This document shows, one piece after another, positions 1,600 through 25,937 of a DNA stretch of 25,937 bases (within the stretch, counting starts at the first letter, position 1; each line of letters begins with the position of its first letter). A program made the translations under genes and the position numbers. The DNA is from a virus. The notes below the pieces were generated by a model that made no database searches, had not been told where the DNA came from, and saw only the letters and a program-made list of their open reading frames with translations. The DNA is taken from positions 1-25,937 of the IMG/VR virus record IMGVR_UViG_3300027782_002632. One strand, 5' to 3'.

Positions 1600-1818
1600 T
1601 TAGTACAACTTTTTAGGTAATTGCTGGTCACGCAAATATTTGTCCCAACGTCTTTTAGCCTGACTTTTAGCTAGTTTACGTTTAACAGTAGGTTTCACAA
1701 ATTCTTGTCGGTCACGGGTTTCCTGCAAAGTACCATAATCTGTAATCATTTTCTTGAACTTACGTAAGGCCTTTTCTGTATTCCCGTCATTAACTAAAAC
1801 TTTGCGTCCTCTAATCAT
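1600..1818 (-). CDS. rpsU: Ribosomal protein bS21
   Basis: A 72-residue small-subunit ribosomal protein close to the usual 70-71 residues. It has the typical pattern: an N-terminal strand, then KALRKFKKM, a conserved basic stretch with [20 protein letters not shown], and a basic C-terminus. bS21 sits at the platform near the anti-Shine-Dalgarno end of 16S rRNA and helps initiation. Phage copies are known from large phages and are thought to exchange into host ribosomes to favour phage messages (family knowledge; not shown here). The ATG overlaps the clpX stop as ATGA (1815-1818), so translation is probably coupled to clpX. I see no good Shine-Dalgarno within 12 nt of its own start. Confidence 0.93.
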
Positions 1819-3020
1819 ATTGCGGCTTTTGGCTGTAAAATTTGCTCCTGATTAATATTTATCTTTTTAATGTTGTTTTCACGGTATTTCTTAGTGTTAT
1901 ACATATGCGGCATCAAAGCCTTTTCAATCTCTGTATGTAACCCACGAGCACCAGTCTTTAATTTCATTGTATTTTCAGCTAACTGTGAGATAGCATCTTC
2001 ACTAAATTCTAGTTCAATGTCGTCTAAACTCAATAGATACTTATATTGGTCAATGTAGTTATTTTTAACTTTTGTCAGAACCTGAATCATTTCATCTTTA
2101 GTCAAATTATCTACATTTACAGTAGTTGTAAAACGGCCAATGAATTCAGGAATCATTCCAAATCGGGTAAGATCATCCGGACTAACCATAGACAAATCAC
2201 CATCTTTACGGGTGTCTTTGATTTCTGCCCCAAATCCAATACTTGTTCCATTTATTCTATTGTTAACAATATCTTTTAATCCAACAAAGGCACCGCCGGC
2301 AATGAATAGAATGTTCTTAGTATCAACTTCAATCATATCGCCACTTGGATGTTTACGTCCACCACCTGCTGGGATACGACATACAGTACCCTCAACCATT
2401 TTCAATAATGCTTGTTGTACACCCTCACCTGATACATCACGGGTAATACTTGCACCCTCACTCTTACGGGCAATCTTATCAATCTCATCAACAAAGACGA
2501 TTCCACGCTCTGCTAATTTACTATCACCACCGGCTGCATTAACCAGCATACTAATCATTGATTCAACATCATCACCTACATATCCTGCTTCTGTTAAACT
2601 TGTAGCATCAGCAACAATGAAGGGCACTTTGAGATATTTTGCAACTGTCTTAGCAAGCAATGTTTTACCCGACCCAGTTGGTCCGATTAGTAATACATTA
2701 CCCTTATGAATTTCTAAATCTTTGGGTGGATTGTTAATACGTTTATAGTGATTAGCAATAGCTACACTAAGAACCATTTTAGCATTCATTTGACCAATAA
2801 TATGTTGGTCTAGAAAATCTTTAATAGTTTCTGGATCGTACCTAAGATGGTCTTTTTCAATAACCTCTTCTGATGTATTATTTTCATCTACCATTAATTG
2901 GGTACATAGTTCAATACAGTCGCTACAAATAGCAACATCTTCTCCTACGATTAATTTATTAACGGTATCTTTATGATTACCGCAGAATGAGCAATGACTT
3001 AATTTTGTTTCTGTTGACAT
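1815..3020 (-). CDS. clpX: ATP-dependent Clp protease unfoldase ClpX
   Basis: AAA+ unfoldase of 401 residues (E. coli 424) that unfolds tagged proteins and feeds them to ClpP. Domains in order: N-terminal zinc-binding domain with C10, C13, C32, C35; AAA+ core with Walker A GPTGSGKT (113-120), pore-1 loop GYVG (146-149), Walker B IVFVDEID (174-181), the RKH substrate loop (222-224), arginine finger in PEFIGRF (R296) and sensor-2 GARGL (357-361). The ClpP-docking loop IGF (261-263) is intact, so this phage protein should pair with ClpP; no clpP is in the window, implying use of the host peptidase (inference). It is preceded by two lipoprotein genes and overlaps rpsU downstream. The likely transcript starts at the promoter at 4710-4738. 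Confidence 0.96.
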
Positions 3021-17978: not shown

Positions 17979-18007
17979 AGTATAACATCATTAAATGTAT
18001 TTGTCAA
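17979..18007 (-). promoter_or_regulatory. Sigma70 promoter of the 17.0-18.0 kb operon
   Basis: Minus strand TTGACA (18002-18007), 17-bp spacer, TATACT (17979-17984). -35 perfect, -10 five of six. It lies in the last codons of the upstream gene and just past its stop. Predicted start near 17972. Confidence 0.85.
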
Positions 18008-18708: not shown

Positions 18709-18890
18709 TATTCAACTCCAAAATGTTGTTTAATCAAATCCGAAGCAAGGAATGGTTCCGCAGTATCAGCAATATCAGCACATTTCCGAACAATCAATTC
18801 GGCGAACTTTTCTGAATTATCAACGTTCATCCATTTACCACTTACGTCGGTCCCTACTTGTTCAATCAATTCTTTAATTCGGTTATTCAT
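18708..18890 (-). CDS. KFAELIV-family small phage protein, 60 aa
   Basis: 60 residues: NSEKFAELIVRKCADIADT and C-terminal IKQHFGVE, the same core as the gene at 11501-11728 and, more distantly, 11278-11508. Start overlaps the AbrB-like gene's stop as ATGA (18887-18890). Three dispersed paralogues point to duplication within the phage lineage. Confidence 0.8.
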   Translation of the reverse strand: MNNRIKELIEQVGTDVSGKWMNVDNSEKFAELIVRKCADIADTAEPFLASDLIKQHFGVE

Positions 18891-19297
18891 TTTTCTTGGT
18901 CAGCCAATGTTGTGAAAAAGGTTTTAACTTTGGTATCATTATCCCATGATGTAGTATAATCATTATCTTTATCAGATAAAGCAATAGCCTCATCATACGT
19001 AAGTACACGATGGCTTACAATCTGTTCACCCAAATACTCTTGGCTAAACTCTTTTGCTTCTTCCATTGTTACTGTATCTAACGCCCACAATGATTTGTCT
19101 TTACCATAGTTGTCAGTACCTTTGGGCACTTCAACCATATAACGATTTCTAAATGTACTAACACATTCTACTAACACCCATTCTGTTTCTTGTTCACTTA
19201 ACATAAAACTTCCATCTCCGTTATCTTTCCAAATTAATGAATCGCCCTCACGCCATCCTACCTGCTCTAACACTTCGGGCGGAAACTCCAATATCAT
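18887..19297 (-). CDS. AbrB/SpoVT-like protein, apparent 5' frameshift
   Basis: 136 residues from the internal ATG. ILEFPPEVLEQVGWREGDSL plus IWKDNGDGSFML is the swapped-hairpin AbrB/MazE-like pattern (L.(L/F)P.E.L...GW.EGD.L.W) used for DNA binding or as a small structural module. The ATG at 19297 has no ribosome site, and it cuts the domain's first strand. Directly upstream the frame continues as KVWTVDLQEDPITSD, the expected beginning of such a domain, but it lacks a start codon; ATG at 19350 sits in another frame and would join it after a single added A (see 19298-19350). The C-terminal half (to EEAKEFSQEYLGEQIVSHRV) is unrecognised. Whether the product is made as 136 or about 154 residues is open. 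Confidence 0.75.
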   Translation of the reverse strand: MILEFPPEVLEQVGWREGDSLIWKDNGDGSFMLSEQETEWVLVECVSTFRNRYMVEVPKGTDNYGKDKSLWALDTVTMEEAKEFSQEYLGEQIVSHRVLTYDEAIALSDKDNDYTTSWDNDTKVKTFFTTLADQEK

Positions 19298-19350
19298 GTC
19301 TGATGTAATTGGATCTTCTTGTAAATCAACAGTCCATACTTTTTAATCAT
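19298..19350 (-). other. Out-of-frame 5' end of AbrB-like gene
   Basis: ATG at 19350 overlaps the exonuclease stop as ATGA, exactly like other starts here, but reads only MIKKYGLLIYKKIQLHQT before a stop. Five A lie at 19340-19344 (minus strand, in ATTAAAAAG). One extra A, or a ribosomal -1 slip at U-AAA-AAG, gives MIKKVWTVDLQEDPITSD joined in frame to the AbrB-like gene. Either a real deletion, an assembly error in a homopolymer, or recoding. Confidence 0.65.
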
Positions 19351-20354
19351 TTTACTAAACTTCCTGTATATGGTGAATTTAACCATGCCGCATACGAATC
19401 CGCTTGTGAACTAAGCTTGACCAAATCATACCGACCGCAGAATTTCATAAAATGAATTCCTACGTGAGGTGTAGTCTCAACTCGTACACTTTCACGGATA
19501 CGTTGATCCACAGCATCTTTGATTTCTTGGGGTTGTGCTGTCAAATCTATCAAGCCTCGGTTTCTTTCAAATGCGTCCCTAACTCGTATTTCATTGCCCT
19601 CATGGTCAATCCAGCGAGAAAGCATAAAATTATTGTGGTTGTAGCCCATCTTATGACGATCTTGAAACGCTTCAAGAATGCCAACTTTATTCTTAGTGCC
19701 CTTTTCTCTGGCTCCAGGATAGGCCGCAAAAATATTATCGCCAGGATCCCCCCGGCATAGCTTGCGAAAAAGTATATACTCAGGATCTTCTAGTAGTTTT
19801 GGTTCTTTAGTTTTCTTATCAATGACTGGCTTACCATTTTCTTTGAGATAGCCACGCAACGTTACTAACTCGTTAGTCACTCCATTAACCTGCGAAACTT
19901 TTTCGGTTATTAATTGGTGATAGTCGCTATCTGTACTCAGTATGTAGTGTGTGTCTTCCGGATGCAAGTGGATGAATCTTGCAATCATGTCATCTGCTTC
20001 AGCACGTTCATGTCGCAGGACGCTTACGTTGGTCCTCTCACGAATGTAGGTTGTAAATTTTTCGTAAGTTTCCCAAAACATTTTTGACTCTTCGGCCTCT
20101 TCCTCAGTAATAGACATAGCATCAACTACACGATTCTTTTTATATGGAGCATACATGTCCTTACGAAAGCTCCTACCCTCGAGACAAAACACCACGTGGT
20201 CAATACCAAACCGTTTTACTGCTTGATTGACACTTGCTAATGTCAGATGAAGGGCCATGCCTATCTTCTCCTCAGTTGTACTATTGCGTGACGCAACATG
20301 TCTTGCTCTGAAAAAAGTATTTGCGGTATCAATTAGTGCGTATTTTTGTGTCAT
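19347..20354 (-). CDS. 5'-3' exonuclease / flap nuclease, T4 RNase H-like
   Basis: 335 residues, close to T4 RNase H (305). Removes RNA primers and flaps 5'-3' during lagging-strand synthesis, before ligase seals the nick. Acidic metal ligands in FEN/5'-nuclease order: ALIDTANTFFRA with D9, EGRSFRKDMYAPYKKNR (helical arch, 60-75), RAEADDMIARF with E119, D121, D122, STDSDYHQL with D142 and D144, and CRGDPGDNI with D203 and D206. It partners functionally with the ligase at 7861-9210. A perfect promoter (20361-20389) would start the RNA at or next to the ATG, so translation may be leaderless; a GGAG 14 nt upstream would serve only a read-through transcript. Confidence 0.94.
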   Translation of the reverse strand: MTQKYALIDTANTFFRARHVASRNSTTEEKIGMALHLTLASVNQAVKRFGIDHVVFCLEGRSFRKDMYAPYKKNRVVDAMSITEEEAEESKMFWETYEKFTTYIRERTNVSVLRHERAEADDMIARFIHLHPEDTHYILSTDSDYHQLITEKVSQVNGVTNELVTLRGYLKENGKPVIDKKTKEPKLLEDPEYILFRKLCRGDPGDNIFAAYPGAREKGTKNKVGILEAFQDRHKMGYNHNNFMLSRWIDHEGNEIRVRDAFERNRGLIDLTAQPQEIKDAVDQRIRESVRVETTPHVGIHFMKFCGRYDLVKLSSQADSYAAWLNSPYTGSLVK

Positions 20355-20360
20355 GTGTCT

Positions 20361-20389
20361 ATTATATACTCCTATTTAGTTTTTGTCAA
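20361..20389 (-). promoter_or_regulatory. Consensus sigma70 promoter at the exonuclease start codon
   Basis: Minus strand TTGACA (20384-20389), 17-bp spacer AAAACTAAATAGGAGTA, TATAAT (20361-20366). Both boxes perfect. Only six bases separate the -10 from the ATG (20354), predicting a start at or next to the A of ATG. Confidence 0.9.
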
Positions 20390-20390
20390 A

Positions 20391-21587
20391 TTATAAGGCA
20401 CAAATCTTGTCTGCATAGTCAGTATTTGGTAATTGCATCAACGCATCAACTACGTTAATTTGATTACCCAATCGATTGACATATACATAACTACCTCTGG
20501 AACCAGTAACTATCCCCCCTTTACTCAGATAATCCTGATAGATAATTTCTACAACTGCCAACAATGCATTATCTTGCCCAGAAGGCTTCCAGTTTTCATT
20601 AGTCAATGCCTCCATTTTATTCATAGCTTTTACTGTAGCAGTCTTGGCACCTTCTAGTGATCCAAAGACCGTATCAATAATGTAATGATAATCATTCATT
20701 TGAGATTTAGTGATGTTCGGTAATTGGTCAAAGATGTTACCGTAAAAACCAAACATACCCGAACTTCTCTTATCCTGAGGCCAATGATTGTAATTTTCTC
20801 CTAGAATATATTTTAACCTATCAATATTTTTATTGCTAGCAATTGCATTGATATGAGTGATAGCTTCTTTGATCTTAGTGTCCTTATGTTTTTTAACTAG
20901 CGGTACACTATGTCCATCATTCAAACATGCCGAAACTTGTTCAAGTGCCAATTTATCTTCGTGTTTAGCATACTTGGGAAACAATCGTGCAATAGAACTC
21001 TTGCAACGCAAATGTTCAATCTCTCCCCATTCAAGCTGGGCCCCGCCGTTAATTTCTAATGCAATACGTAATGGGAAACTTGCATCGTCGGTAGTCCATA
21101 CCATTGTTGGTACTGGGAACTCTCTCCAGTTCTCCGGATCCCATCCTTTAATATTACCTGCTCTGATATTAACATATAGGGCCAGTAAATGATGGAATCC
21201 ATCTACTGTAATTAAATGATTATTCCAGCTGTGTTTTACTGCATAAACTGTAGTGAACGAACTAAATCTAAAGTGCTGGGCAATCTTTAACAAGTTAGCA
21301 GTGTCAACTAGACGTTGAACCAATTCAAGCCAATAGTGATCTCCCAATTTAGTTTCACATGCTTTACCTATGTTTGCCGGATCATAGTTAGGGTCTTTAT
21401 TAGCAACATTATTTGCTTTACTAGTTTTCAAGGCATTCTTGAGTAGAGTATTATTCATCAACTCATCTCCCTTGTCGGAAATACTAAATTTCTTAAATTC
21501 GTTGAGCAATTTAGTAAAGACATTATCAATCTTACTCAAGGTAGATTGGCCTTTGCGTGGTGTAAATATGCGTTTCTTTTGTGCCAT
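20391..21587 (-). CDS. ParB/DGQHR-like protein
   Basis: 398 residues, not firmly recognised. The string HLITVDGFHHLLALY (124-138) resembles the D-G-x-H-R box of ParB-like nucleases and of the DGQHR domain in DndB-type proteins, where it binds or cleaves nucleotides or nucleic acid; here the Arg is His. Before it a basic N-terminus (MAQKKRIFTPRKGQ); after it a long helical part (EQVSACLNDGHSVPL, KEAITHINAIASNKN). ATG follows ACAAGGAAATATC. It is 20 bp downstream of the candidate nuclease gene and probably shares its promoter (22254-22282). The family call is inference. Confidence 0.75.
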   Translation of the reverse strand: MAQKKRIFTPRKGQSTLSKIDNVFTKLLNEFKKFSISDKGDELMNNTLLKNALKTSKANNVANKDPNYDPANIGKACETKLGDHYWLELVQRLVDTANLLKIAQHFRFSSFTTVYAVKHSWNNHLITVDGFHHLLALYVNIRAGNIKGWDPENWREFPVPTMVWTTDDASFPLRIALEINGGAQLEWGEIEHLRCKSSIARLFPKYAKHEDKLALEQVSACLNDGHSVPLVKKHKDTKIKEAITHINAIASNKNIDRLKYILGENYNHWPQDKRSSGMFGFYGNIFDQLPNITKSQMNDYHYIIDTVFGSLEGAKTATVKAMNKMEALTNENWKPSGQDNALLAVVEIIYQDYLSKGGIVTGSRGSYVYVNRLGNQINVVDALMQLPNTDYADKICAL

Positions 21588-21607
21588 GATATTTCCTTGT
21601 GTGTGAA

Positions 21608-22222
21608 TTATTTTTTACGATTGAAGTTTTTTCTTGCGTTATCAATTAACATCTTTTGAAAGTTTTTAACCATTTCGTTGATATCAATTTTTTGAGTTAC
21701 TGCTGTTAAGTTTTTTGGTCCTGATATTTCAATGATATGATTAGATGCCACTACAATATCAATCTGTTTGTCTTTTTGCACTGTATTATGAACTGCGATA
21801 TTTTTTGGAATGATAAACGAACCATCTTTCATTATAACTAAAATAACATCACAAATTTCATCAGGTCTAATTTTACGTTTGGATCGTAGACTACATAACT
21901 TTACTGAAAAAATGTCTTTCAGTTTGCCTCGCCTATCGTACATTGTGTTGTTGAGTAGTGACTTACACTCTAGTGTAAGTTTTCGTTTTGGCATGGGTCC
22001 ATCAAAACGATCCCATCTAAAGTCTTTGTGATTTTCACCTACGAACACTAGCTGGTCATCTTGTTCCCCAATAACATCTTCTATCAATCCTCCACGTAAA
22101 AAATTGTATTGATTCCCTTTAATTTTGCCTACATGATTCAATGCAAAATCAATAATAAAGTCCCACTCAAATGACTTTAACGTTGAAATTACATTAGCAT
22201 CAATTGCTTGAATATTTGCCAT
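21608..22222 (-). CDS. Candidate PD-(D/E)XK nuclease, 204 aa
   Basis: 204 residues from MANIQAIDANVISTLKSFEW. A long N-terminal helix with IIDFALNHVGKIKGN is followed by WDRFDGPMPKRKLTLECKSL: an acidic D71-D74 region and E85-x-K87, the spacing of a PD-(D/E)XK core (weak, by eye). The C-terminal half is strand-rich (DVILVIMKDGSFIIPKNIAV, KQIDIVVASNHIIEI). The frame can be read 20 codons further to an ATG inside the promoter, but GGGAGAGCA before ATG at 22222 fixes the start, with a leader of about 25 nt. Located with a methyltransferase and a second candidate nuclease. Confidence 0.72.
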   Translation of the reverse strand: MANIQAIDANVISTLKSFEWDFIIDFALNHVGKIKGNQYNFLRGGLIEDVIGEQDDQLVFVGENHKDFRWDRFDGPMPKRKLTLECKSLLNNTMYDRRGKLKDIFSVKLCSLRSKRKIRPDEICDVILVIMKDGSFIIPKNIAVHNTVQKDKQIDIVVASNHIIEISGPKNLTAVTQKIDINEMVKNFQKMLIDNARKNFNRKK

Positions 22223-22253
22223 TGCTCTCCCTGAGTTAAGTTGATAAGTCTCT

Positions 22254-22282
22254 ATTGTATAGCCACATCCATTTAATGTCAA
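22254..22282 (-). promoter_or_regulatory. Sigma70 promoter with shared spacer (copy 4)
   Basis: Minus strand TTGACA (22277-22282), spacer TTAAATGGATGTGGCTA, TACAAT (22254-22259). The spacer matches 13446-13474 at 15 of 17 positions. Predicted start near 22247. Confidence 0.9.
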
Positions 22283-22293
22283 ATTTTTCTGGT

Positions 22294-23310
22294 TTATTCA
22301 AACACAAACAAGTCACTATGTGCCATTGTTGTAGTAGCGTCATATGAATAATATGCGTGTGAAGTTGTATTTTTGAAAACATAGGTTAAATCAAATCTAT
22401 TCAATTTCTTTTTATAGTTCTTAAAAGGGCTATCAATGCCCAAATGATCCACTAAGTCAAAACCCATATCTTCATGTAACTGGATAGTACGTTCTACTAT
22501 ATTTTCGCATCGTCCATTCATTACGTTATAACAGCTTAAACCGTCTTTTTTAAGTATAGATAGATTGCGGGTAATCATTGGTATATACCAATTATCCATC
22601 CAGCTATTATATTCAGAGTATTTCTGATAACTTTGATTACTATTTGATGCGTAAATTTCTATGTCAAAATAGGGAGGACTAGTCAATACAATATCAACCT
22701 TCTCAACAGATTCCAAATCTAAATCCTCATAGGGAATATTGTAAAGTGTCACCTTATCTTCAATATTTAAGAATGTAACCATTCTCATTAGATTGTTATA
22801 AGTTTCTACATTGGGTTCACATCCTACATATTTCCATCCGGAAGCTACTGTACCTAGTAATCTACCTCCCCAACCAGCACAAGGATCAAATAGAATTCCT
22901 TCTGTTTTTTGTGTTGATAGGATTATTTGTTTAGACAAGTGAGGTCTATAAAAGCTAGGATTGTGCATTCCCGATGCCATATAAACTGCTCTACGTATCC
23001 ATGACAGATACAATGCAGACATTTTTGATAGACCCCACAATCTAACTTTATCCATTAGTACAGGGTCATTCCATGATTTTACAAATGACTTTCCCTTTTT
23101 TGTTTCAATATCAAAAAAATTACTACAAAAATGTTGACACAGTTTTAGACCGGGTTTATATTGTGATCCAGTCTTAAAGACTGTTTCATTTTTTAACCAG
23201 TTCCAATCTTTCAATAGTTCTTTATCAGTATAGTTATAATGAAATTCAACCTTCATTAGATCCTGTGTTGTAATATCTTGCGGTAATGTTTTTTTTGATT
23301 TAGTTGCCAT
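22294..23310 (-). CDS. DNA methyltransferase (N4-cytosine or N6-adenine)
   Basis: 338 residues. SAM-binding motif I DPCAGWGGR (142-150), motif II-like VGCEPN (162-167) and catalytic motif IV TSPPYFD (200-206). The TSPPY form is typical of N4-cytosine and some N6-adenine amino methyltransferases; exact base and site cannot be told from sequence. The N-terminal 135 residues are a helical phage-type extension and may carry target recognition. Start ATG at 23310 overlaps the upstream endonuclease-like gene by 11 bases, so the two are coupled. Could shield phage DNA from host restriction or act with the neighbouring nuclease. Confidence 0.9.
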   Translation of the reverse strand: MATKSKKTLPQDITTQDLMKVEFHYNYTDKELLKDWNWLKNETVFKTGSQYKPGLKLCQHFCSNFFDIETKKGKSFVKSWNDPVLMDKVRLWGLSKMSALYLSWIRRAVYMASGMHNPSFYRPHLSKQIILSTQKTEGILFDPCAGWGGRLLGTVASGWKYVGCEPNVETYNNLMRMVTFLNIEDKVTLYNIPYEDLDLESVEKVDIVLTSPPYFDIEIYASNSNQSYQKYSEYNSWMDNWYIPMITRNLSILKKDGLSCYNVMNGRCENIVERTIQLHEDMGFDLVDHLGIDSPFKNYKKKLNRFDLTYVFKNTTSHAYYSYDATTTMAHSDLFVFE

Positions 23311-23869
23311 TATTTTTAATCCATTTTTTCTTTCTATTCTCTGTTTTTGTAATCAATTTAGAATAGAAAGAAACTGCTTCTTGACCCAAACGATGAAGCC
23401 ATTGTTCTTTTGTCAATGTTGTACGTGGAGATTCAAAAAAATTAACCATGTTTTTAATTTGCAATTGACCCACTCCCAAGTTCTGAATACTGAGATGTTC
23501 CCAATTTAATTCGTACACATCCAGTACAATGATATCTATAATTTTTTTCTCAATACTATCATATTTAACAAAATTATAGATAAGTGGTTTATTTAATGTA
23601 CGCAATCTATCAATGCTAATCAAGTTAGGCATTTTGAATTTCAATGCTACATCACTAGTCTTATGGTCAACATAACAATCATTAACTGTTATGTCCTCAA
23701 TACTTCTGCGACTTGTGGCAGGAACCACATTGGGAAATACTTCCGTAAGAATATTATTACATTCTAGTTCTATCTTATCTGCTATGCCACGTTGCTGTAA
23801 ATGATTGGATTCGGGAAAAGCCAATTTTTCAGACAAACATTTCTGAATTTCTTCTTTAAGTTGTTGCAT
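23300..23869 (-). CDS. Candidate type II restriction-like endonuclease
   Basis: 189 residues. SRRSIEDITVNDCYVDHKTS (about 53-72) fits a PD-(D/E)XK core: E58/D59 then D68-x-K70; it is followed by FKMPNLISIDRLR, a (M)PNLISI.RL string that accompanies D-x-K in some phage and bacterial restriction endonucleases. C-terminal helices are basic (KTENRKKKWIKNN). The frame runs 5 codons upstream, but AGGAAATCAC lies just before the ATG at 23869. It overlaps the methyltransferase gene, the layout of a restriction-modification pair, with a promoter at 23895-23923. Endonuclease role is an inference. Confidence 0.75.
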   Translation of the reverse strand: MQQLKEEIQKCLSEKLAFPESNHLQQRGIADKIELECNNILTEVFPNVVPATSRRSIEDITVNDCYVDHKTSDVALKFKMPNLISIDRLRTLNKPLIYNFVKYDSIEKKIIDIIVLDVYELNWEHLSIQNLGVGQLQIKNMVNFFESPRTTLTKEQWLHRLGQEAVSFYSKLITKTENRKKKWIKNNGN

Positions 23870-23894
23870 GTGATTTCCTATCATATAAAGATAT

Positions 23895-23923
23895 AGTATA
23901 ACACATTACCCGATTATTGTCAA
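23895..23923 (-). promoter_or_regulatory. Sigma70 promoter of the nuclease-methyltransferase pair
   Basis: Minus strand TTGACA (23918-23923), 17-bp spacer, TATACT (23895-23900). Predicted start near 23888, 19 nt before the ATG. One promoter for both genes means nuclease-first translation unless the methyltransferase has another source. Confidence 0.88.
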
Positions 23924-23955
23924 TTTTTATTTTGTTGCATTAAAACAACACCTTT

Positions 23956-24372
23956 TCAACTTACCTCAGTGCGGCCATTGCCGAGGTCCTTAGTACGGAT
24001 TACTCTGGAATCACGGTTTTCCGGATCTGCAACCTGCTGTTCATACATCTCTAAGGCTACATTGCGACATACTGTTTGAAACCAACGATCCACAATGATA
24101 ACATCAGTATCATCATCACGTTGTTTATACCCCGCTCTAATTAAATTCAATACAAACTTGTCATTAAAATCTAAATCAAATGCACCATCATTAATATTCT
24201 CAGGATTGATTTCTACTTTAGTAATAGCAATGTAGGGTTCACCTGCCGCTGTTGCTTTTTCTTTTTCAGTAAGTTCGGGTGTTGGGGGCTTTTGTTGTTT
24301 AGGCTTAGGCTCTTTCTTAACAACAGGCTCAACCTCTTGCTTTTTGAATAAGTTTTTTAATTTTTCAAACAT
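23956..24372 (-). CDS. Conserved T4-like phage protein, 138 aa
   Basis: 138 residues. Basic/proline-rich linker (residues 4-35), then ELTEKEKATAAGEPYIAITK, VEINPENINDGAFDLDFNDK and VDRWFQTVCRNVALEMYEQQ, ending RTKDLGNGRTEVS. A pattern I recognise from many T4-like cyanophage and environmental genomes; function unknown. Overlaps the UvdE stop by 16 bases, with a promoter inside the UvdE gene (24427-24455). Confidence 0.87.
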   Translation of the reverse strand: MFEKLKNLFKKQEVEPVVKKEPKPKQQKPPTPELTEKEKATAAGEPYIAITKVEINPENINDGAFDLDFNDKFVLNLIRAGYKQRDDDTDVIIVDRWFQTVCRNVALEMYEQQVADPENRDSRVIRTKDLGNGRTEVS

Positions 24373-25382
24373 TTGTATCTTTCGTATAATTTAAAGCTGG
24401 CAAGATTCTTTGCCTTTGATTCACACATCATATCAAAGTTATCTAAGAATGTCAATGCCCAATCATTCACCGCATCATTCCAATAGTAATCACTATGTGC
24501 CCGAAGCTTCTGTTTACTATGTCCTGCTTCAATCAACGCACCATGAGAGGGTAACTGTGATCCGGGATGGCCGACAAGTACATCTTCACGACTGACGGAG
24601 TAATGGAGAGTAGGGCGAACGCCACGCCAACTATCCCTAACCATTTTAACACGGTCGTCAGTAGGTTGAATATATTCACCCTCTCTAATCCAATTATGGT
24701 GAATGTCCATGACCGTAGGTACGAGGTCAGATAATGATAAGCAGTCTGTAAGTCCATGTGTGTATTCCTCATTTTCTAGTGTTAGTGTGTTTCTCGCTTC
24801 GGGGCTGAGTCTTCCGTAGACATCTCTGATTCCTTGTGGGCCTCTACGCCCAGATATGTGTATATTAATCTTAAAATCCTGGAAATTTCTACCGAACCCC
24901 ATCCATCTGGCCATATCTGCATGATATTCAAATTCTTCTATACTCTTATTTACTACCTCGTCACGGTCACTCGCTAAAACTACAAACTGGTCTGGGTGAA
25001 ATGACAAACGAACATCGTTGGCCCTAGCTGTTTCACCAATGGGTGCCATCCAACGTTCTAAGCTGTTCTGTACATCCGTACTATGCCAAAATTCTTTGTA
25101 CCCATCCATTGTATAGAAACTGAGCATATCGCTAGTAAGACGAACCATACGCAATTCGGGTTCTAATGTAGCAACACGCTTAACAAGTGCATGAGTGTTC
25201 ATAATGTTACGTTTAGCAACATCCATAATCTTTTCTTCTACTACATTGCGGCTATTACGCTTTGCCCATGCTTGTGTAGTGCCACCGGTGTTAAGGCCTT
25301 CGGCTGAAACTATCTCACCTTTGTGATTGATTTCTGCCCACTTGCAAGCAAAGCCGATGCGTTTGATAGATTGATTTGTCAA
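24357..25382 (-). CDS. uvdE: UV damage endonuclease UvdE
   Basis: 341 residues from TTG at 25382. Cuts DNA 5' to UV photoproducts, starting an alternative excision repair. TIM-barrel metal ligands can be followed: RIGFACKWAEIN (8-19), LSFHPDQF with H129, INIHIS with H175, TLENEEY with E203, VMDIHHNW with D226/H228, then RPTLHYSVSRED and KLRAHSDYYWN near the end. The frame extends 14 codons to an ATG at 25424, but that lies at the predicted -10 (25415-25420), before the transcript start, so it cannot be used from this promoter. TTG at 25382 lacks a strong ribosome site, so the start stays uncertain by a few codons. Repair of sunlight damage suits a surface-water phage. Confidence 0.93.
   Translation of the reverse strand: MTNQSIKRIGFACKWAEINHKGEIVSAEGLNTGGTTQAWAKRNSRNVVEEKIMDVAKRNIMNTHALVKRVATLEPELRMVRLTSDMLSFYTMDGYKEFWHSTDVQNSLERWMAPIGETARANDVRLSFHPDQFVVLASDRDEVVNKSIEEFEYHADMARWMGFGRNFQDFKINIHISGRRGPQGIRDVYGRLSPEARNTLTLENEEYTHGLTDCLSLSDLVPTVMDIHHNWIREGEYIQPTDDRVKMVRDSWRGVRPTLHYSVSREDVLVGHPGSQLPSHGALIEAGHSKQKLRAHSDYYWNDAVNDWALTFLDNFDMMCESKAKNLASFKLYERYKCLKN
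24427..24455 (-). promoter_or_regulatory. Sigma70-like promoter inside uvdE
   Basis: Minus strand TTGACA (24450-24455), 17-bp spacer, TATGAT (24427-24432). -35 perfect, -10 five of six. Inside the UvdE coding end; predicted start near 24420, 48 nt before the ATG of the 138-residue gene. Confidence 0.7.
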
Positions 25383-25414
25383 AGTAATAGTCCAAAGTGA
25401 TAAATAATAGATAT

Positions 25415-25443
25415 AGTGTAGCATACCTACGCAATAAAGTCAA
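25415..25443 (-). promoter_or_regulatory. Sigma70 promoter of uvdE, overlapping divergent control region
   Basis: Minus strand TTGACT (25438-25443), 17-bp spacer, TACACT (25415-25420). One mismatch in -35, two in -10. On the plus strand GATAAATA (25399-25406) faces the rightward gene, so early (minus) and possibly late (plus) transcription would overlap here. Confidence 0.7.
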
Positions 25444-25461
25444 CTATTTACGGATAACAAA

Positions 25462-25937
25462 ATGAGATTTACTGAAATTATATCTGAGAGTGCAGGAACC
25501 AGACTGAAAGACATAGCAAAAATTGCCACCAATATGCAGGATGCTGACTTTTGGTTAATCCGTAAAGGTAGTGATAAGACTGTAGGTAAGCCTGTTAAAG
25601 AATTTGATCCTTCAAGGATTGGAGTTAAAGTTGTAAAAACTGATGTTCTTGACCCAAACTATCTGTATTACGCAATGATGAATTTACACAACCAAGGACA
25701 TTTTGCTCGTATAGCAAATGGAACAACCAATTTAGTTAATATTACTGTAGCTGATATTGCTAATATTCCACTTGGGCAACAAAACGAATCATTAAATGAA
25801 TTTGCTCCTAGTAATGGTGATGACCATGAGCCAGATGAAGAAGAAATTCTAAAACAACTGGCTGCTCAATGGTGGCATGGAACAGAACAACAAATGGCAA
25901 AAGCACAAAAAACATTAGCTTCAATGGGTTGGGATAT
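25462..25937 (+). CDS. MRFTEI-type phage protein with HsdS-like pattern (3' end off-window)
   Basis: 158 codons, then cut. The N-terminus MRFTEIISESAGTRLKD is a short tag-like start recalled from large environmental phages. Residues about 31-105 (DADFWLIRKGSDKTVGKPVK, then GVKVVKTDVLDPNYLYYAMM and TTNLVNITVADIANIPLG) closely follow the order of a type I restriction HsdS target-recognition domain: a positioned P-x-Y-L-Y-Y, then a G-T-T-N...N-I..(D/I)(I)..I-P-L end. Then an acidic linker and WWHGTEQQMAKAQKTLASMG. Role unknown; the HsdS similarity is inferred from motif order, not a search. ATG at 25462 follows GGATAACAAA. It opens a plus-strand unit opposite to uvdE. Confidence 0.8.
   Translation, partial: MRFTEIISESAGTRLKDIAKIATNMQDADFWLIRKGSDKTVGKPVKEFDPSRIGVKVVKTDVLDPNYLYYAMMNLHNQGHFARIANGTTNLVNITVADIANIPLGQQNESLNEFAPSNGDDHEPDEEEILKQLAAQWWHGTEQQMAKAQKTLASMGWD

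Follow-up and report, generated by a model that had tools for sequence, protein, structure and literature searches.

Loss of TTTAAA from phage contigs that carry a predicted restriction nuclease without a neighbouring methylase

Four adjacent genes in a virus record, read in an initial annotation as one possible DNA-modification and nuclease island, raise the question of which DNA their products would attack and how the phage's own genome is spared. The window, that is, the whole 25.9-kb stretch analysed here computationally (virus record IMGVR_UViG_3300027782_002632), probably derives from the genome of a jumbo phage, because a related contig encodes a DNA polymerase whose nearest counterparts (46–48% identity) belong to jumbo phages such as Sinorhizobium phage Phosso and Agrobacterium phage Atu_ph07. 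By eye, its first part holds a DnaK-looking open reading frame (ORF; 1-1542), in a phage record, and a ClpX-looking one (1815-3020; phrog_4339, E 2e-95). All four genes were recovered where they had been placed, as minus-strand ORFs at 20391-23884, between two conserved neighbours:

C138, 23956..24372, minus strand: conserved gene flanking the variable site on the left (phrog_13349, E 3.4e-9; synteny).
N194-M338 promoter-like site, 23895..23923, minus strand: TTGACA-17-TATACT.
N194, ORF 23300-23884, minus strand: likely start at 23869, with an AGGAAA ribosome site ahead of it, giving 23300..23869 (189 aa).
M338, 22294..23310, minus strand: DNA methyltransferase (PF01555, E 3.9e-7).
B224-A398 promoter-like site, 22254..22282, minus strand: TTGACA-17-TACAAT.
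B224, ORF 21608-22282, minus strand: likely start at 22222, giving 21608..22222 (204 aa); conserved E-C-K.
A398, 20391..21587, minus strand: conserved motif VDGFHHLLAL.
Exo335, 19347..20354, minus strand: 5'-3' exonuclease, the conserved gene flanking the variable site on the right (PF02739, E 1e-18; synteny).

Both promoters claimed for the four genes are thus present (23923-23895 and 22282-22254), and sites of this kind (TTGACA, 17 bases and a -10 box matching at 5 or 6 of 6 positions) precede C138, N194, B224, and Exo335. The 6.8 kb from 18800 to 25600 contain five promoter matches of at least 11/12, four of them the sites just named, whereas 200 dinucleotide shuffles averaged 0.125. We placed the start of B224 at 22222 because the TTG at 22282 belongs to the -35 box of its promoter. 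Further near-perfect TTGACA-17-TATAAT sites occur on the minus strand at window positions 18007, 13474, 13074, 12804, and 9317.

Synteny showed that the interval between C138 and Exo335 is swapped among related contigs. Two of them (L011, L012) read C138-B224-A398-Exo335, three (L013-L015) read C138-N194-M338-Exo335 with small extra genes including one of HNH type, L005 has N194 alone between the flanking genes, L004 has N194 followed by a helicase/HNH gene, and the window has N194, M338, B224, and A398 together. Since relatives carry N194-M338 without B224-A398 and vice versa, these are two unrelated, independent two-gene cassettes at one variable site for nuclease genes. The reading as a single island therefore fails: the cassettes occur separately, and N194 often occurs alone. 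Among the other occupants of the variable site are a ResIII helicase with a C-terminal HNH domain (L004:6671-8479), an HNH-type ORF (L014:2186-2638), and a 195-aa ORF without assigned identity (L013:1238-1825).

B224 and A398 could form a second DNA-targeting system, either a modification-dependent or a Dnd/ParB-like nuclease, an idea that does not compete with the explanation of N194-M338 and that we hold only tentatively. The two genes co-occur in every locus reaching both (five contigs besides L002, the window's near-copy), share their own promoter, and encode the conserved E-C-K of B224 and the VDGFHHLLAL motif of A398, which is reminiscent of ParB/DGQHR proteins. However, B224 had no profile match up to E 10, four A398 members had no Pfam match up to E 10, and no ParB/DGQHR-type PDB profile matched. 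The structural models were of low confidence (pLDDT 46 for B224, for which Foldseek returned no fold match with E <0.001, and 34 for A398), no homologues of either protein were found in the annotated phages searched, and carriers showed no 4- to 6-mer avoidance on the scale of the TTTAAA loss described below. What stands of the PD-(D/E)XK-like and ParB/DGQHR-like assignments in the initial annotation is therefore the motifs, with nothing else speaking for the fold of B224 and no ParB or DGQHR profile match for A398 even at E 10. Its comparison with Dnd systems, supported by that short motif, was not upheld; it had itself seen no DndA/C-type gene, and none of DndA/C/D/E was found among the window neighbours scanned, relatives being compared by synteny only. 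A 7-deazaguanine connection was considered and rejected, as 25 fragments contained no TGT/DpdA and folE, queD, and queE were present with and without each cassette. In the L004 and L012 contigs (G002, G022), the region upstream of the variable site holds ORFs that by eye resemble folE, queD, and queE (7-deazaguanine synthesis), a glycosyltransferase, and an epimerase.

The N194 cassette was more informative. In an alignment of 20 sequences (46–85% identity to N194), D64, D73, and K75 are invariant and form a catalytic-type motif, D-x8-D-[HV]-K, alongside FKMPN and GQLQI blocks. The motif follows the PD-(D/E)XK pattern, from which we infer the fold; the earlier PD-(D/E)XK-like label agrees with these residues, and no library or PDB profile matched the family. 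Profile searches of the four proteins, as the initial annotation had suggested, matched M338 to PF01555 and left N194, B224, and A398 unmatched. Homologues of N194 were absent from the annotated phages and plasmids searched, and neither N194 nor M338 was confirmed in the genome contigs searched. N194 homologues occupy many genomic places and are solitary in most lineages: a methylase overlaps or abuts the homologue in 7 of 20 cases, and none adjoins it in 13 of 20. An M338-type partner (TSPPY, with methylase motif I ahead of IV) occurs in the window, L003, L013, and L014; L032 and L043 instead carry a different methylase, which has DPPY and matches PF01555 in full (L033 is truncated). In the N194 tree, whose support is weak, the paired state requires three changes. 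A search with PF01555 and PF02086 found no methylase in solitary-N194 parent records of up to 97 kb; these contigs are fragments, and a methylase may lie elsewhere in those genomes. The initial annotation had named a methyltransferase occurring alone in close relatives as counting against its reading; this was not observed, the solitary partner being the nuclease instead.

Because a nuclease without a partner has to leave the DNA that encodes it intact, we scanned the solitary-N194 contigs for absent palindromes of 4, 5, and degenerate 6 bases, without a prior. TTTAAA was the sole pattern near-absent in every contig with enough expected sites (highest observed/expected ratio (O/E) 0.08, next pattern 0.75). 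Pooled over 14 contigs (383 kb), 3 sites were observed vs 184 expected (O/E 0.02), the next hexamer reaching 0.22. Observed counts and those expected from a maximal-order Markov model were 0/44 in G016, 2/31 in G018, 0/32 in G007, 0/15 in G009, 0/15 in G014, 0/11 in G013, 0/10 in G002, 0/8 in G019, 0/8 in G020, 0/7 in G010, 0/5 in G015, and 1/7 in G006. Allowing for the overlap of G009 with G007 and the kinship of G016 with G018, these contigs represent about ten lineages. In such genomes a methylase is unnecessary, since the TTTAAA sites are missing.

The loss acts at the DNA level, because the Phe-Lys codon pair avoids TTT-AAA in solitary contigs: this spelling was used in 0/287 cases vs 312/790 in family controls (Fisher 5.6e-52, with ORFs picked mechanically and cells phylogenetically non-independent). 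It accounted for 17/46 cases in B224-A398 contigs and 5/42 in M338 contigs. All three residual TTTAAA sites of the solitary set (two in one G018 gene, one in G006) lie within GTTTAAAC, a context found at 16 of 616 sites in family controls. Without any loss, the solitary set should hold about 5 to 8 such occurrences, and GTTTAAAC is therefore probably not an N194 substrate, although the sample is small.

Phages without N194 retain the site. The 80 family control contigs (922 kb), chosen by DNA polymerase and independently of N194, contained 616 of 668 expected TTTAAA sites, and none of the 41 with at least 6 expected had zero. Among them, 47 parent records were searched with an N194 profile and yielded no N194; the same profile detects N194 in G016, G018, G007, and G002. 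Unrelated large phages without N194 gave 8/8.5, 13/15.6, 19/19.6, and 180/198, and contigs of the window's own group with B224-A398 and without N194 gave 51/63. A null test on the control sets flagged AGCGCT, which was set aside as a rare, low-count hexamer depleted family-wide, unlike TTTAAA. Contigs that pair N194 with a methylase also retain TTTAAA (window 5/18, G001 7/12, beta-methylase pairs 26/33). Those with M338 are intermediate, at about 13/40 including the small contigs L013-L015, vs 51/63 in their sisters without N194, perhaps because the methylase protects only in part, or because an already purged lineage acquired it recently.

Known cases of site avoidance in phages are attributed to host systems (PMC6286503), and halovirus genomes lose sites of host restriction (PMC7230728). 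The TTTAAA loss might likewise be due to restriction by bacterial hosts, N194 merely coinciding in the phages of those hosts, and the strong depletion of ACGT, AGCT, TCGA, and CATG in single contigs is what host restriction would predict. However, TTTAAA is the sole loss shared by about ten lineages that avoid otherwise different sites, and it is retained both in same-group contigs without N194 and beside N194-methylase pairs, which makes this account very unlikely. Slightly less likely still is that N194 is a homing-type selfish endonuclease spreading through phages that lack it: its solitary state in most lineages, its many genomic places, and the HNH-type genes that share this variable site in relatives would suit such an element, but a 6-base site met with in relatives about every 1.5 kb (616 in 922 kb) does not qualify as a homing site, and restriction enzymes are what typically combine paired methylases with complete purging across a genome.

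Other avoided sites were observed alongside. ACGT is absent or nearly so in G007 (0/85 expected), G009, L107-L109, L117, L169, and L030, with N194 present or not, which host restriction or another self-targeting nuclease could explain; ACGT, AGCT, or TCGA is likewise missing from several contigs. G016 and G018 strongly avoid AGCT (O/E 0.17) and GCWGC (0/118 in G016), probably a trace of host restriction.

M338 was confirmed as the TSPPY methyltransferase of the initial annotation: the motif is present, and the PF01555 match lies above the cut-off. Its ORF overlaps that of N194 by 11 bases. PF01555 marks an N6/N4-type methylase, and TTTAAA holds only A and T on both strands; lacking C, the site leaves N6-adenine as the protecting base methylation, so that M338, if it is the protector, is predicted to be an N6-adenine methylase of TTTAAA. 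Its family partners in these data are nuclease-like only, apart from relatives of <35% identity in annotated phages, and a relative with 51% identity lies behind a different PD-(D/E)XK-like ORF (L018-L020). There, in G024 and G025, the 177-aa ORF and the M338 relative that follows it may form a related pair whose site is of the TTAA type (TTAA 14/70 observed/expected).

On this evidence we consider it very probable that N194 cleaves TTTAAA except within GTTTAAAC, that M338 is its cognate protector, that solitary carriers are immune through site loss, and that host or rival DNA would be the target. N194 would act as a sequence-specific endonuclease, and M338, encoded in the overlapping frame, would methylate adenine in the TTTAAA sites of the phage's own DNA and so protect it. 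Many related jumbo phages keep the nuclease without a neighbouring methylase and would be immune because their genomes have been purged of the site. Expression during infection would then lead to cutting of host DNA and of unprotected rival phages or plasmids. The genome statistics support TTTAAA as the site, its link to N194, and its relief by a methylase; cleavage itself, the timing of expression, and the benefit to the phage as a weapon are what we infer from them. Of the features of a type II restriction-modification system, an adjacent DNA methylase is present in the window, with two kinds of methylase behind homologues, and a defined short recognition site is evident indirectly, through purging only where N194 is solitary. 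Methylation of TTTAAA is predicted to block cleavage by N194, in line with the sites retained in methylase-bearing contigs. The initial proposal, a nuclease and methylase directed against foreign DNA with the phage itself left unharmed, is accordingly well supported for N194-M338, for which a site can be named.

DraI and AhaIII are type II restriction enzymes with TTTAAA specificity. N194 resembles them, by description, in its predicted site and small size, and differs in being phage-borne, often without a methylase, and predicted to spare GTTTAAAC. Chlorella viruses and marseilleviruses encode restriction-modification systems discussed as a coinfection tool (PMC7253447); these share with N194-M338 a virus-borne nuclease and N6-adenine methylase (predicted here), whereas N194 belongs to tailed phages, in many lineages of which no methylase adjoins it and immunity would come from the missing sites. 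In Mom-REase fusions of jumbo phages, the nuclease is proposed to act against host or superinfecting DNA (PMC7824862); protection there is by base modification, and for N194 carriers we propose methylation or genome-wide site loss. An intron endonuclease of phage PhiPA3 harms a coinfecting phage (PMC11620839) and is a homing endonuclease, unlike N194, which is predicted to be a restriction enzyme whose site is short and frequent. In a limited literature search, no published case emerged of a phage that encodes a nuclease and is itself devoid of the nuclease's site, which is weak evidence of novelty.

We hypothesize, as the likelier course of events, that solitary restriction enzymes are a widespread phage strategy, in which immunity arose by complete site loss in about ten lineages and different methylases were acquired later, with sites returning. 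N194 represents a nuclease family that no searched library contained, and for which both a site and, as a finer point, the exclusion of GTTTAAAC are predicted. Its distribution suggests that a phage may be armed with a restriction enzyme while having no modification enzyme at all, and that the specificity of a phage nuclease can be read from the phages' own genomes.
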